DNA from: Mucilaginibacter celer
GTDB taxonomy: Bacteria; Bacteroidota; Bacteroidia; Sphingobacteriales; Sphingobacteriaceae
Length of the DNA: 64,000 bases
Assembly: GCF_003576455.2 (NCBI RefSeq)
Contig: NZ_CP032869.1
Location: 3,162,001-3,226,000 of the forward strand
Direction: 5' to 3'
The position numbers and the translations under genes were made by a program. The notes under the pieces were generated by a model. The model was not told where the DNA came from and did not search any database. It was given only the letters and a program-made list of their open reading frames with translations. This document shows, piece by piece, positions 58,750-64,000 of the stretch. Position 1 is the stretch's first letter. Each line of letters opens with the position of its first letter.

Positions 58750-61080
58750 ATGTTCAGACGCATACGCAACCGGTTTCTACGATACTTTGTCATCTTTATA
58801 TACTTTGTAATTATCTTTTTCTGTTCGATAGAACTTAACTTCCTCTGGCTTTTCGGATATTCTCCTGATATGCAGGATATTAAAAACCCCGTACTGTCAG
58901 TAGGCTCGGAAGTTTATACCGCCGATGGTAAGCTGATTGGCCAGTACTATAAGGAAAATCGTTCGCCAATTGAGTTTAAAGAGATCTCACCCAACCTGGT
59001 AAATGCGCTTGTAGCTACCGAAGATGCCCGTTTTTACAGTCACGGCGGTGTAGATTTTTATTCGTTTTTCAGCAGCATGCTGTCAACTGCTAAAGGCGAT
59101 AAACGCGGCGGCAGTACGGTAACCCAGCAACTGGCCAAAAACCTGTTCGAAACACGTAAAAAGAAGTCGCAAGGTATAATTAAACGCGTTCCTGTGCTGC
59201 GTACCATAGTTTACAAATGCAAAGAATGGCTTACTGCTTTTAAAATTGAACACGTTTACAGCAAACAGCAAATATTAACGCTTTATTTTAATACCGTACC
59301 TTTTGGCAATAACTCGTATGGTATAAAAACTGCGTCGCTAAAGTATTTTAATAAACAACCTGCTGCCTTAAACCCTGCCGAATCGGCCCTGCTTATCGGC
59401 ATGCTGAAGGCTACATCAAGCTATAACCCCATCCGTAACCCGCAACGCGCCACCGAAAGGCGAAATGTGGTTTTAGGGCAGATGGAAAAATATCATTACC
59501 TCACACCAGAGCAATATAAAGCTAACACAGCCCTCCCACTTAATCTCGACCTAAGCTATGTGGAGGATGATTCGCATGGCGACTCATACCTGCGCCGCGC
59601 CGTTGAAAAATGGCTGGACAAATGGTGCAAGGAAAACGACTATAACCTGTACGAAGACGGGCTGAAGATCTACACCACCATCGATTCGAAAATGCAGCAA
59701 TACGCCGAAGAGGCCGTTGCCGAAAAGATGAAAATGTTGCAAAAACGCTTTTATAACCTGTGGGGCAATAAAACGCCCTGGCGGGATTCGAAAGGTGTTG
59801 AGATTAAAGATTTTATCCTGAAAAATGAGCAGCGCCTGCCCATTTATAAACTGCTCGACAAAAAATACAAGGGCGATACCATCAAAATACAGGAGTATTT
59901 TAAAACCAAAAAACGGATGAAGGTATTTACCTGGAACGGCGAGCAGGATACTACTTTCTCTACTATCGATTCGATTAAATACTACGCCAAAATTCTCAAT
60001 ACCGGCATGATGACCCTCGAGCCATCTACCGGAAAAATAAAAGTATGGATAGGCGGTATCGATCACCGTTTCTTCAACTACGATCACGTAAACCAGGCCC
60101 GCAGGCAGGCAGGTTCAACATTTAAACCCTTCGCCTACCTAACCGCGCTTGATAATGGTTATAACCCCTGTGATAAATTTACCGATAAACCGGTATCCAT
60201 CAAATACAAAGACAACGGTAAAGACGAGGTTTGGGAACCCAACAATGCCGATTTTCACTTCTCATACCGCGAAATGTCCTTACGTTGGGCCATGGGTAAA
60301 TCCGTTAACTCCATTACCGCGCAGCTAACCGAAAAAGTGGGTTGGGATAAAATTGTAGAGTATGCGCACCGTTGCGGCATTGAAAGCCCGCTTAAATCGG
60401 TGCCATCGGTATCCTTAGGTTCAAACGACGTTTCAGTTTATGAAATGGTGCGTGCTTACAGCACTTTTTTAAACAAAGGCGAAAAGATAGACCCGCTACT
60501 GGTTACCAAAATTACCGATCAGCAGGGTAACGTGATACAGGAATTTAAGCTTAAAACCGAAAAGGTATTAAGCGAAGAAACAGCCTGGCTGATGCTTTAT
60601 ATGTTCCGCGGAGGTATGGAAGAGCCGGGCGGCACCTCGCAGGCGCTTTGGGAATACAACGGTTTATGGAAAAAGGATAACCAGATAGGCGGCAAAACCG
60701 GAACCTCGTCTGATTACGTGGATGGCTGGTATATGGGCATCACCAAAGATCTGGTTACCGGCATCTGGGTAGGTGCCGACGACCGCTCGGTACACTTTAC
60801 CACTTCCGAAACCGGTGAGGGTTCACATACCGCACTTCCTATCTTCGGCAGATTTATGGAAAAGGTTTATGCCGATCAGTCGTTAGGTTATACCTACGGC
60901 CCGTTCCCGAGACCGTGGACTAAGATCAGCAAAACCTATAACTGCCCGTCGCCGCATATTGAAGAGGATACCACATCAACCGATAGCTTAAGCAACCCTA
61001 TTGATACAACCGGCGTAACACCTGTACAGGAACCGGCACCGGAGAACCCGGAAAGCACGCCTCCTGCACAAAACAGGTAG
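58750..61080 (+). CDS. Class A penicillin-binding protein (PBP1A-like)
   Basis: This bifunctional enzyme polymerises and crosslinks peptidoglycan in the periplasm. One N-terminal membrane helix (about 10-36) is followed by a GT51 glycosyltransferase domain with Glu91 in ATEDARFYSHGG and RGGSTVTQQLAKNLF. The transpeptidase domain has Ser456-x-x-Lys459 in AGSTFKPF, the SxN motif in GKSVNSIT, and KTG in GGKTGTSSDYVDGWYMG. The C-terminal tail (about 740-776) is rich in Pro, Thr and Ser and looks disordered. The 776-residue length is normal. Single gene with the protease-propeller-barrel gene downstream on the same strand. Confidence 0.95.
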   Translation: MFRRIRNRFLRYFVIFIYFVIIFFCSIELNFLWLFGYSPDMQDIKNPVLSVGSEVYTADGKLIGQYYKENRSPIEFKEISPNLVNALVATEDARFYSHGGVDFYSFFSSMLSTAKGDKRGGSTVTQQLAKNLFETRKKKSQGIIKRVPVLRTIVYKCKEWLTAFKIEHVYSKQQILTLYFNTVPFGNNSYGIKTASLKYFNKQPAALNPAESALLIGMLKATSSYNPIRNPQRATERRNVVLGQMEKYHYLTPEQYKANTALPLNLDLSYVEDDSHGDSYLRRAVEKWLDKWCKENDYNLYEDGLKIYTTIDSKMQQYAEEAVAEKMKMLQKRFYNLWGNKTPWRDSKGVEIKDFILKNEQRLPIYKLLDKKYKGDTIKIQEYFKTKKRMKVFTWNGEQDTTFSTIDSIKYYAKILNTGMMTLEPSTGKIKVWIGGIDHRFFNYDHVNQARRQAGSTFKPFAYLTALDNGYNPCDKFTDKPVSIKYKDNGKDEVWEPNNADFHFSYREMSLRWAMGKSVNSITAQLTEKVGWDKIVEYAHRCGIESPLKSVPSVSLGSNDVSVYEMVRAYSTFLNKGEKIDPLLVTKITDQQGNVIQEFKLKTEKVLSEETAWLMLYMFRGGMEEPGGTSQALWEYNGLWKKDNQIGGKTGTSSDYVDGWYMGITKDLVTGIWVGADDRSVHFTTSETGEGSHTALPIFGRFMEKVYADQSLGYTYGPFPRPWTKISKTYNCPSPHIEEDTTSTDSLSNPIDTTGVTPVQEPAPENPESTPPAQNR

Positions 61081-61177
61081 TTATTATACTTTTGAAGATA
61101 AAATGAATAAGGTTGTTTTTTAATTAAAAGCAGCCTTATTTTGTTAAATTAGCCATATCTATTTACTTGAATAATAT

Positions 61178-64000
61178 ATGAATAAAGCTTACTCACTTTT
61201 CAATAGAGTTAAAAAGTATACCATCATATTTATTGCAGTTGTTGGCTCATTGTTGTTAAGCACCAATGCCAGGGCGCAGTATTTTGGCCAGAATAAAGTG
61301 AGGTATAAAAACCTGAAGTTTAACGTTTACAAAACCCCACACTTTGAGATTTATTACTACCTGAAAAATGATAGCATGGTAAAACGCTTCGCCCAGGAAA
61401 GCGAATTGTGGTACACCCTGCATCAACAGGTTTTCAGGGATACATTTAAACATGCCAACCCCATAATCCTATATGCCAACCACCCCGATTTTCAGCAAAC
61501 TACAGCTATCGACGGTGAGATTAGCGTAGGTACAGGCGGTGTTACCGAGGGCCTTAAAAACCGCGTGGTAATGCCGGTGATGGAAACCAACCAAACCACC
61601 CGCCACGTTATAGGCCACGAGTTGGTGCACGCCTTTCAATATCGTTTATTGCTGGGCCATGATTCAACCGAATATGAAAATATCAATAACATTCCCCTGT
61701 GGATGATTGAAGGGATGGCCGAGTACCTGTCGTTGGGTAAAAAAGATACTTATACGGCGATGTGGATGCGCGATGCCTATTTAAACCACGATATACCTAC
61801 CGTACGCGATTTGACGGAGAGCAGCAAGTATTTCCCTTACCGTTACGGAGAGGCGTTTTGGTCGTTCATTGGTTCAACTTATGGCGATACCGTGATTGTT
61901 CCGTTTTTTAAGAATGCTGCGCGATATGGCCTTGAATACGGCATTAGGCGCACTTTTGGTTATGACGATCGTACACTTTCGCGCCTCTGGAAAAACTCGA
62001 TCGAGGCTACCTACAAACCTTTTTTAAAAGATACCACCCAAACGCCCAAAGGCATTAAACTGGTTGATAGTAAAAATAGCGGCGACCTGGTGGTTGCACC
62101 TTCGGTTAGCCCCGATGGCAAATATGTAGCCTTCCTTTCGGCTAAAAGTTTATTCAGTATTGATCTTTACCTGGCCGATGCCAAAACCGGGCGGATCTTG
62201 CGAAAGCTCACGAGTAAGGTATCCAACACCCATATCGATGAGTTTAATTTTATCGAATCGGCCGGCGCATGGTCTCCGGATGGGAAGAAGTTTGCGTTCA
62301 GCGTGTTCAGCAAGGGGCGTAACCGGCTGGATGTGGTTGATTTGAAAAGCGGCGACGTGGTTGATGATATTTCGATGGAGCAGGTTGAGCAGTTTAGTAA
62401 CCTGTCGTGGTCGCCAAATGGTAAGGATATCGCCTTCCAGGGATTGGTTGAGGGACAGAGCGATTTGTACTCCTATAACTTCGATACCAAAAAGATTACC
62501 CGGCTTACCAACGATAAATATTCCGATTACCAGCCGAGTTATTCGCCCGATGGTAAAAAGATCATCTACTCGAGCGACAGGACAACTTATGATCAAAGCC
62601 TGGAGCAGGATATCCCTTTCAACCTCGCCGAGCTCGACCTGGAAACAGGTAAGATCACCGATCTGAAAATTTTTAACACGGCTAATAACCTCAACCCGCA
62701 ATACTCGGCCGATGGCAAACAGATCTATTTCCTGTCCAACCGCGATGGTTTCCGGAACCTGTACCGTTATACTATCGACGGCGGTAAGATTGAACAGATG
62801 ACCAACCTGTTCACCGGCATTTCGGGCATTACCGAATATTCGCCGGCTTTGAGTATTTCCAATCATGATGATGTGGTTTACTCCTACTACCGTGCACAAA
62901 AATATTCCATTTATAATGCTAAGGCTTCAGATTTTACACCAGTTGTAGTACAGGCAGGCGATGTAAATTTTGCGGCAGGCACCTTGCCGCCAAACCGCTC
63001 GGTAGGTGTTGATCTGATCAACTCCAACCTCAACAACTTTTTGGCCTATCGCAAAATCCCCACCGACTCGGTAAAGGCTATCCCCTTCCGCTCCAAATTT
63101 AAGCTGGATTACCTGGCGGGCAGCGGCATTGGTGTAGGGGTGAGTAACTTTTACGGTACCAGCCTTTCAAGCGGGATCCAGGGGGTATTCAGCGATATTT
63201 TGGGACGTAACCAGATCTTTGCGGCGGCATCGGTCAACGGGCAAATTTATGACTCGGGTGCAGCGGTTACTTATGTAAACCAAACCGGCAGATGGAACCT
63301 CGGTGTCGGCGTTTCGCACATCCCTTACCAGTTTGGTTTTAATACGGCTACCTACCCGGTAAAGAATGTTGGCGGTAAAAACCAAACGGTATATTCCGAC
63401 AATATTGATATCATCCGCAACTTTGAGGATGCGGGTAGGGTATTCACTTCCTACCCTTTCTCGCGTACTACACGCTTTGAAGTAAGTGGAGCAGCATCGC
63501 ACAATTATTACCGTGTCGACCGCTATGCCGATTACTATACTATCGATACTGCCATGGTTAACGGCAAACCTCAGATCAACATAGGAAACTATATCAATTC
63601 TGACAGGAAAAAAATCCCTAACGATGAGGAAACCGCCACCCTCAACCAAAACTACGGTTCAACTTATTTTTATAACCTGAAATCGTATTCCATACTTACG
63701 CTTTCAACCGCTTTAATTGGCGATAACTCTTACTTTGGCGTAACTGCTCCGCTTAATGGTTTCAGATACAGGCTGGAAGCCGGTTACAACTTTGGTACCT
63801 ATAAATTTTTCTCGCCTACAATTGATCTCAGGAAATATGTACGCGTTGCGCCGGTAACGTTTGCCGCCCGCTTTTTTGCAACAGGCCGCTTTGGCGAAGA
63901 CAAGGGTTTATACCCGCTTTTTGTGGGCTATCCGTTCTATATCCGCGGTTACGAGGGACAAACTTTTTACAACCGTAACCAAACTTCATCAAATGGTTTC
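61178..64000 (+). CDS. Gluzincin-type protease, TolB-like propeller and outer-membrane barrel fusion (5' part)
   Basis: The frame is open from ATG 61178 to the window end (941 codons, no stop), so the 3' end is missing. A signal peptide (about 1-34, ending ARAQ) is followed by a zinc-protease-like domain with HELVH at 147-151 and WMIEGMAEYLS near 175-185. Then come five or more PD40/WD40-like propeller repeats (SPDGKYVAFLS, SPDGKKFAFS, SPNGKDIAFQG, SPDGKKIIYSS, SADGKQIYFLS) at about 300-560. From about 640 the sequence is of alternating strands like an Omp85/surface-antigen beta-barrel (FKLDYLAGSGIGVGVSNFYG). It should be an outer-membrane protein with a periplasmic or surface protease domain. 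Function unknown. Confidence 0.83.
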   Translation, partial: MNKAYSLFNRVKKYTIIFIAVVGSLLLSTNARAQYFGQNKVRYKNLKFNVYKTPHFEIYYYLKNDSMVKRFAQESELWYTLHQQVFRDTFKHANPIILYANHPDFQQTTAIDGEISVGTGGVTEGLKNRVVMPVMETNQTTRHVIGHELVHAFQYRLLLGHDSTEYENINNIPLWMIEGMAEYLSLGKKDTYTAMWMRDAYLNHDIPTVRDLTESSKYFPYRYGEAFWSFIGSTYGDTVIVPFFKNAARYGLEYGIRRTFGYDDRTLSRLWKNSIEATYKPFLKDTTQTPKGIKLVDSKNSGDLVVAPSVSPDGKYVAFLSAKSLFSIDLYLADAKTGRILRKLTSKVSNTHIDEFNFIESAGAWSPDGKKFAFSVFSKGRNRLDVVDLKSGDVVDDISMEQVEQFSNLSWSPNGKDIAFQGLVEGQSDLYSYNFDTKKITRLTNDKYSDYQPSYSPDGKKIIYSSDRTTYDQSLEQDIPFNLAELDLETGKITDLKIFNTANNLNPQYSADGKQIYFLSNRDGFRNLYRYTIDGGKIEQMTNLFTGISGITEYSPALSISNHDDVVYSYYRAQKYSIYNAKASDFTPVVVQAGDVNFAAGTLPPNRSVGVDLINSNLNNFLAYRKIPTDSVKAIPFRSKFKLDYLAGSGIGVGVSNFYGTSLSSGIQGVFSDILGRNQIFAAASVNGQIYDSGAAVTYVNQTGRWNLGVGVSHIPYQFGFNTATYPVKNVGGKNQTVYSDNIDIIRNFEDAGRVFTSYPFSRTTRFEVSGAASHNYYRVDRYADYYTIDTAMVNGKPQINIGNYINSDRKKIPNDEETATLNQNYGSTYFYNLKSYSILTLSTALIGDNSYFGVTAPLNGFRYRLEAGYNFGTYKFFSPTIDLRKYVRVAPVTFAARFFATGRFGEDKGLYPLFVGYPFYIRGYEGQTFYNRNQTSSNGF

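Follow-up and report, generated by a model that had tools for sequence, protein, structure and literature searches.

What would an outer-membrane barrel do with a zinc protease and a beta-propeller fused in front of it? The question is raised by one gene at the end of a 64,000-nucleotide stretch of the 7.15-Mb genome of Mucilaginibacter celer (C1:3162001-3226000; hereafter the window). Its frame opens with an ATG at position 61178 on the forward strand and meets no stop codon before the window ends; the initial annotation of this DNA had advised reading on, and doing so closes the frame 393 bases later, giving a protein of 1071 amino acids, of which the first 941 codons (61178..64000, +) lie in the window and the last 130 outside it, up to equivalent position 64393. 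The protein joins a gluzincin peptidase domain, a TolB-type propeller and an Omp85-type barrel in one chain, and we propose, as a plausible rather than a probable reading, that it acts as an outer-membrane assembly and quality-control station that does without POTRA domains and carries its own protease in the periplasm. The family to which it belongs is phylum-wide, widespread and apparently unstudied.

Part of this layout can be read by eye. A Sec-type signal peptide covers residues 1-33 (61178..61276, +), ending ...STNARA/QYFG (ARA/Q) and with no lipobox Cys. It is followed by HELVH (residues 147-151, 61616..61630, +), presumably two zinc ligands and a catalytic Glu, and by WMIEGMAEY (residues 175-183, 61700..61726, +), in which E178 would be the third ligand. 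Five propeller repeats come next (SPDGK at 311, 366 and 456, SPNGK at 412 and SADGK at 510), and the C-terminal residue is Trp. Signal peptide, HELVH...EGMAEY zinc site and at least five repeats, which the initial annotation had claimed for a single frame, are thus all present in the 1071-residue sequence. The remaining assignments make use of structure models, which were built on the ortholog from M. oryzae (96% identity in the best segment) and not on the window protein. In the full-length AlphaFold2 model (42 sequences; mean predicted local distance difference test score, pLDDT, 69; predicted template modelling score, pTM, 0.52), a helical N-terminal domain is followed by six propeller blades and then by about 16 long strands from residue 642. 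The alignments (A1 and A3) hold 42 of 48 scan loci, two being left out as broken or truncated (L068, L080) and four as probable near-copies (L042, L048, L070, L079). A single-sequence scan of genome contigs gave matches solely in Bacteroidota and almost all in Mucilaginibacter; the nearest named relatives (M. oryzae, M. gossypii, M. gossypiicola, M. kameinonensis, M. endophyticus and Mucilaginibacter sp. SMC90) all belong to this genus, with 93-96% identity in the best segment. No NCBIfam model scores above its cut-off for the window protein.

The peptidase domain (residues ~34-290, 61277..62047, +) is delimited by the fold match of the ortholog model and by Peptidase_MA_2 (PF13485) in relatives. 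This Pfam family scores 27.3 bits on the window protein, under the curated cut-off of 32.4, and 56.8 bits on the relative L137, and it is found in 26 of 40 aligned family members at E<=0.001. These 40 were picked for diversity and comprise the window protein as query (P0001), five loci from a listing filtered for HExxH (L013, L036, L038, L081, L082) and 34 from an unfiltered listing. The peptidase domain of the M. oryzae ortholog was also modelled alone (pLDDT 68.7), and the nearest solved folds to the peptidase model are M9 collagenases (Foldseek E 3.7e-5; structural aligner Z 15.9 over 221 residues) and M30 lugdulysin (Z 15.1), with M1 aminopeptidases behind both at a Z of ~12. Whereas the initial annotation had spoken of an M1-like or gluzincin domain, only the second term stands: HExxH at 147-151, the downstream E178 and the fold match agree with a gluzincin, MA(E). 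The M1 aminopeptidase signature, HExxH-x18-E plus GAMEN, is lacking, as 26 residues separate H151 from E178 and no GAMEN occurs in the sequence. H147, E148, H151, E178 and Y221 are invariant in all 40 aligned members at identities down to 24%, and this constancy of the tetrad of presumed ligands and catalytic Glu would be hard to account for if the domain did not catalyse a reaction or, at the least, bind zinc; together with the 1071-residue frame it also rules out a chance or misread frame. As judged from sequence and model, the domain is a gluzincin with an intact active site, and it would be expected to cleave proteins.

The propeller (residues ~291-592, 62048..62953, +) is of the six-bladed TolB type, with blades taken from the strand list of the model. 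PD40 scores 96.7 bits on the window protein (Pfam cut-off 20.9) and is found in 39 of the 40 aligned members at E<=0.001, and the model matches TolB with a Foldseek E of 4.9e-15 and a Z of 25.7-25.8 over ~245 residues (3iax: Z 25.7, 244 residues). The NCBIfam TolB model TIGR02800 gives 126.8 bits, under its cut-off of 343.15. A 1062-residue PD40 protein of the same genome (L195, 4712-7900) was considered as a paralog and set aside: it matches the propeller parts of the family profile only, and both HExxH and an RG motif of this type are absent.

Is there a barrel behind the propeller? The Omp85 family of Pfam (PF01103) has no match in the window protein at E<=1 and matches 8 of the 40 aligned members (E<=0.001); as Pfam does not see the barrel here, its assignment draws on those eight members, on the fold match and on a profile comparison within the same genome. 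The initial annotation had posited an Omp85-type barrel after about residue 640, and the ortholog model bears this out, since its residues 641-1070 align to BamA and TamA with Z 21-23 (BamA Foldseek E 2.2e-10; D. radiodurans BamA 8xnb, Z 23.1 over 313 residues; E. coli TamA 4c00, Z 22.6 over 280 residues; F. johnsoniae BamA, Z 21.7), and its ~16 strands agree with the 16-strand barrel of this type. In the window protein the predicted barrel spans residues ~641-1071 (63098..64000, +, the final 130 residues lying past the window). An IRGY motif at residues 922-925 (63941..63952, +) falls between model strands 11 (893-903) and 12 (951-965), which we take to be the place of the RG[FY] loop-6 motif in BamA, and an RG motif occurs within the last 260 residues of 39 of the 40 aligned members. 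Within the genome, the barrel profile matches the Omp85 locus L154 with 90.4% probability and an E of 1.4e-6, placing IRGY opposite LRGF (reversed control 0.7%). The other seven PF01103 loci gave 76.4, 74.9, 43.6, 30.5, 19.3, 14.3 and 4.5%, with every frame of at least 200 amino acids per locus compared and reversed-alignment controls at 0.1-0.8%. At the sequence level the support from this comparison is strong for some loci and weak for others. The genome has eight PF01103 matches (L154-L161), seven of them above cut-off and the window gene not among them, and Pfam undercounts its Omp85 proteins. Between propeller and barrel lies a linker (residues ~593-640, 62954..63097, +) of low model confidence. 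Pfam finds no POTRA in the window protein, and these ~50 residues are too few for one POTRA domain; a POTRA hidden in the linker found no support.

How widespread is this design, which the initial annotation had called unusual? It turns out to be common. Of 395 genomes sampled in the phylum, 272 have a match to the whole protein at E<=1e-10, in some cases probably via the propeller alone, and 250 (145 of 170 genera) have one to the peptidase domain by itself, inactive members counted in; moreover, the pairing of propeller and Omp85 barrel was already classified in 2014. Frame lengths among the matches listed are nearly all ~940-1280 amino acids, with two of 1530. Within the sample, the peptidase domain has no match in genomes of the family coded f4, and one genome of the window's own family (G359) matches neither the whole protein nor the peptidase domain. 

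The family also has members whose active site is gone. Ten genomes with a weak or no peptidase match were searched again. Nine now gave a match: eight belong to the window's class, and G283 comes from another part of the phylum. By profile all nine are full-length members, one of them split into two matches and the other eight covered by a single one. A class-wide profile search matched 121 of 149 genomes at E<=1e-30. The active site was then read in 39 proteins, namely the nine and 30 loci among the matches listed from the 121 genomes: the tetrad is intact in seven, all of the window branch, and HExxH is missing in 32 (L196-L204, L212-L234), 31 of which come from the window's own class. The RG motif is kept by 31 of the 32, and a Glu at the third-ligand position by ten. 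These proteins appear to form a pseudoprotease branch with the same architecture, found mostly in the window's own class. A quick tree was built from 69 of 79 rows, without six loci of the window branch and four inactive proteins from a single genus (L223, L224, L228 and L232). In it, 27 of 28 inactive rows fall in one branch, and the window branch and a short branch are each separate, all three with support 100. The remaining inactive row, L203 of G283, sits on a long branch inside a sister branch in both trees, its place being unsure. It reads RERE instead of HEHE, possibly the mark of a second loss of catalysis, which is likely only if this placement holds. FastTree puts all 33 sister-branch loci and L203 in one group (support 97); its joining of the window branch with the short branch may be a long-branch artefact.

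The existence of an inactive branch with the same architecture suggests that the protein can serve as a scaffold independently of its protease function. One may even ask whether in the window branch, too, the peptidase domain is a scaffold that does no cleaving, given that the fold region persists without HExxH in 32 other full-length members; we hold this to be very unlikely, because the tetrad is retained in 40 of 40 aligned members while identity drops to 24%. With active and inactive branches occurring naturally, the role of the protease can be tested directly.

What might such a chain do, then? In the reading that we favour, the barrel would sit in the outer membrane, as model and motif suggest, and would handle or insert client envelope proteins in the manner of BamA and TamA; the TolB/BamB-like propeller would dock partners or clients in the periplasm; and the fused gluzincin domain would cleave, remove or mature stalled or incoming clients, as BepA, which carries tetratricopeptide repeats, does at the beta-barrel assembly machinery (BAM). 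A single chain would in this way unite tasks for which E. coli uses three proteins, BamA, BamB and the BAM-bound protease BepA. Domains that precede an Omp85 barrel lie on its periplasmic side. Experiments on PlpD have shown this orientation for its patatin domain (excerpts of PMC11116518). From the N-terminal position of the domains and this precedent, the protease most likely faces the periplasm, which makes periplasmic clients likelier than the surface proteins proposed in the initial annotation. Surface processing, suggested there from sequence alone, would fit a different model, in which substrates, or the protein's own N-terminal domains, reach the surface through the barrel, similar to type Vb/Vd systems, and are processed there by the protease; TpsB members of the Omp85 superfamily do translocate proteins (excerpts of PMC4104836). 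We consider this quite improbable, as the PlpD precedent points the opposite way (excerpts of PMC11116518) and a folded propeller and peptidase would hardly fit through a 16-strand barrel.

PlpD also inspires the main competing explanation: the barrel would mainly anchor and regulate a periplasmic enzyme, and the protease would process an envelope protein unrelated to barrel assembly. PlpD has just such an N-terminal enzyme before its Omp85 barrel, with the enzyme domain staying periplasmic (excerpts of PMC11116518), and the window protein shows no POTRA; a plain anchor, on the other hand, would need neither the loop-6-kind RG motif of 39 of the 40 members nor the frequent linkage of the sister branch to tamB. 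This explanation is possible, though we find it doubtful.

The tamB linkage is seen in 20 of 33 sister-branch loci, of which 13 were placed by the quick tree (picked for diversity) and 20 by FastTree (from the top of the hit list). In the 20 linked loci (L132, L134, L137, L148, L164-L171, L173-L176, L178-L181; eight family codes), the family gene follows a large gene and the gene of RNase R on the same strand, -4 to 170 bases separating it from the gene before; RNase R was named by Pfam in one locus and by clustering elsewhere. The large gene encodes TamB: its profile matches solved TamB 9xdc at E 5.7e-18, and 4 of 16 members match Pfam TamB, the best at 5.3e-31. In three members scanned singly with Pfam no TamB match appeared, so that the assignment comes via the profile and other members. 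In eight cluster-bearing genomes, Pfam TamB is found in five, once in each and always beside the family gene, and is missed even there in the other three. HExxH is present in all 20 sister-branch loci added, and the W..EG pattern in 19. The short branch (L135, L136, L143, L144; ~940 amino acids) lies near a phosphotransferase system (PTS) enzyme I gene. In all four of its loci, the gene directly downstream clusters with the BamB-like (PQQ_2) protein of L144; in three of the four, a clustered neighbour that carries a PEGA domain in L144 also follows. One branch being often linked to tamB and one to a BamB-like gene suggests that these sister branches point to the same pathway.

This leads us to the points that weigh against an assembly and quality-control role. 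Links to tamB and to a BamB-like gene were seen in sister branches and not in the window branch, and tamB linkage is far rarer in the diversity-picked loci (4 of 13) than in those from the top of the list (16 of 20). In M. celer itself the TamB genes lie far from the window gene (C1:4442339 and C1:5292846), and one of them adjoins another Omp85. The same eight sister-branch genomes carry 6-9 Omp85 matches each, family genes included, which means that other insertases exist. That the architecture can do without proteolysis is clear from the 32 members that lack HExxH. No POTRA, through which known insertases take in their clients, is seen in the window protein, the mean pLDDT of the full model is only 69, and no activity, location or phenotype data on the family were found in the open-licence PMC literature. 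As a side observation, the adjoining pair in M. celer consists of TamB (L182, C1:4442339-4446148) and the Omp85 of L154, and is possibly a TamB2-TamL2-like pair.

The neighbourhood of the window gene itself points in another direction. A PBP1A-like class A penicillin-binding protein (Transgly and Transpeptidase domains; 58750..61080, +) ends 97 bases before it, and PBP1A is found upstream on the same strand in all 49 loci over 8 kb of the window's family, covering four genera, with another called open reading frame in between in three. Among 16 other window-branch loci, seven, over seven family codes, have a divergent PBP2, six of them with RodA (called by Pfam for L122 and by clustering for the others). 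Such company would fit a wall-growth factor that couples peptidoglycan synthesis to the outer membrane, with the propeller, like that of TolB, binding a lipoprotein of the Pal/OmpA kind and the protease acting on a wall enzyme or its regulator. However, a terminator-like hairpin lies between PBP1A and the window gene (61105..61141, +; fold -17.1 kcal/mol, z -4.5) and is followed by a T-rich stretch, although a consensus terminator scan listed nothing at 61105-61141. The hairpin makes co-transcription, and with it PBP1A as an operon partner, doubtful. PBP2 is on the opposite strand, and nine of the 16 loci have neither neighbour. A wall-growth role is in our view unlikely.

Three observations are new. 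All 40 aligned members keep the tetrad unchanged, and 32 other full-length members have lost HExxH (our literature search was barely aimed at inactive proteases); in 20 of 33 sister-branch loci the family gene forms a cluster with tamB and the RNase R gene (tamB linkage was outside the aim of that search); and the neighbour of the window-branch gene is PBP1A in the window's own family and PBP2 in seven others, six with RodA. Taken further, and here we are speculating with a fair measure of doubt, across the phylum the family could form an uncharacterised class of outer-membrane assembly machines, each self-contained, that hold insertase barrel, docking propeller and quality-control protease in one chain, serve in some lineages as TamB's native outer-membrane partner in TamA's place, and had the protease switched off in an ancient sister branch, perhaps once more elsewhere, leaving a scaffold or chaperone. 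The tamB linkage would then be a candidate answer to the question of TamB's partner where TamA is missing.

How does the window protein compare with known systems? Closest is WD40-Omp85, named by Heinz and Lithgow in 2014 and likened to a BamA-BamB fusion (excerpts of PMC4104836), which shares an N-terminal TolB-like propeller, a C-terminal Omp85 barrel and the lack of POTRA, so that the window protein fits its definition. The WD40-Omp85 section of that paper mentions no peptidase, and its 'Metallo' subfamily is PF00149, a different domain; nor did we find a peptidase domain described in a WD40-Omp85-type family among open-licence PMC papers. A 2024 paper says of the metalloprotease, WD40-like and patatin-like subfamilies, among others, that they are not well characterised. 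PlpD likewise has an enzyme fused before an Omp85 barrel, but the enzyme is a lipase and not a zinc protease, POTRA is present and there is no propeller (excerpts of PMC11116518). BepA, a BAM-bound zinc metalloprotease, is a separate M48 protein (excerpts of PMC13067283), whereas the window protein has another gluzincin, fused to the barrel. The TamL-TamB system of Bacteroidota pairs an Omp85 protein with TamB. Linkage to tamB is often seen in the sister branch and not at the window gene. Unlike the window protein, TamL is a lipoprotein; tamL and tamB are not in one operon, while tamB2 and tamL2 may be (excerpts of PMC12045153), and Omp85 lipoproteins bear three POTRA domains (excerpts of PMC4104836). 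In two papers on Bacteroidota BAM structures, no word starting with 'peptidase' occurs in the main text, and the B. thetaiotaomicron propeller protein BamI is a separate chain (excerpts of one of these papers). With TolB the propeller is shared (Z 25.8 at best), the window protein remaining under the NCBIfam TolB cut-off. BamA and TamA share the barrel fold (Z 21-23) and the RG[YF] loop-6 motif, and differ, as does TamL, in having POTRA domains before the barrel, where the window protein has peptidase and propeller. Well-studied Omp85 machines bear POTRA domains, and a POTRA-less Omp85 protein with its own protease across a phylum would show another way of combining insertion with quality control.

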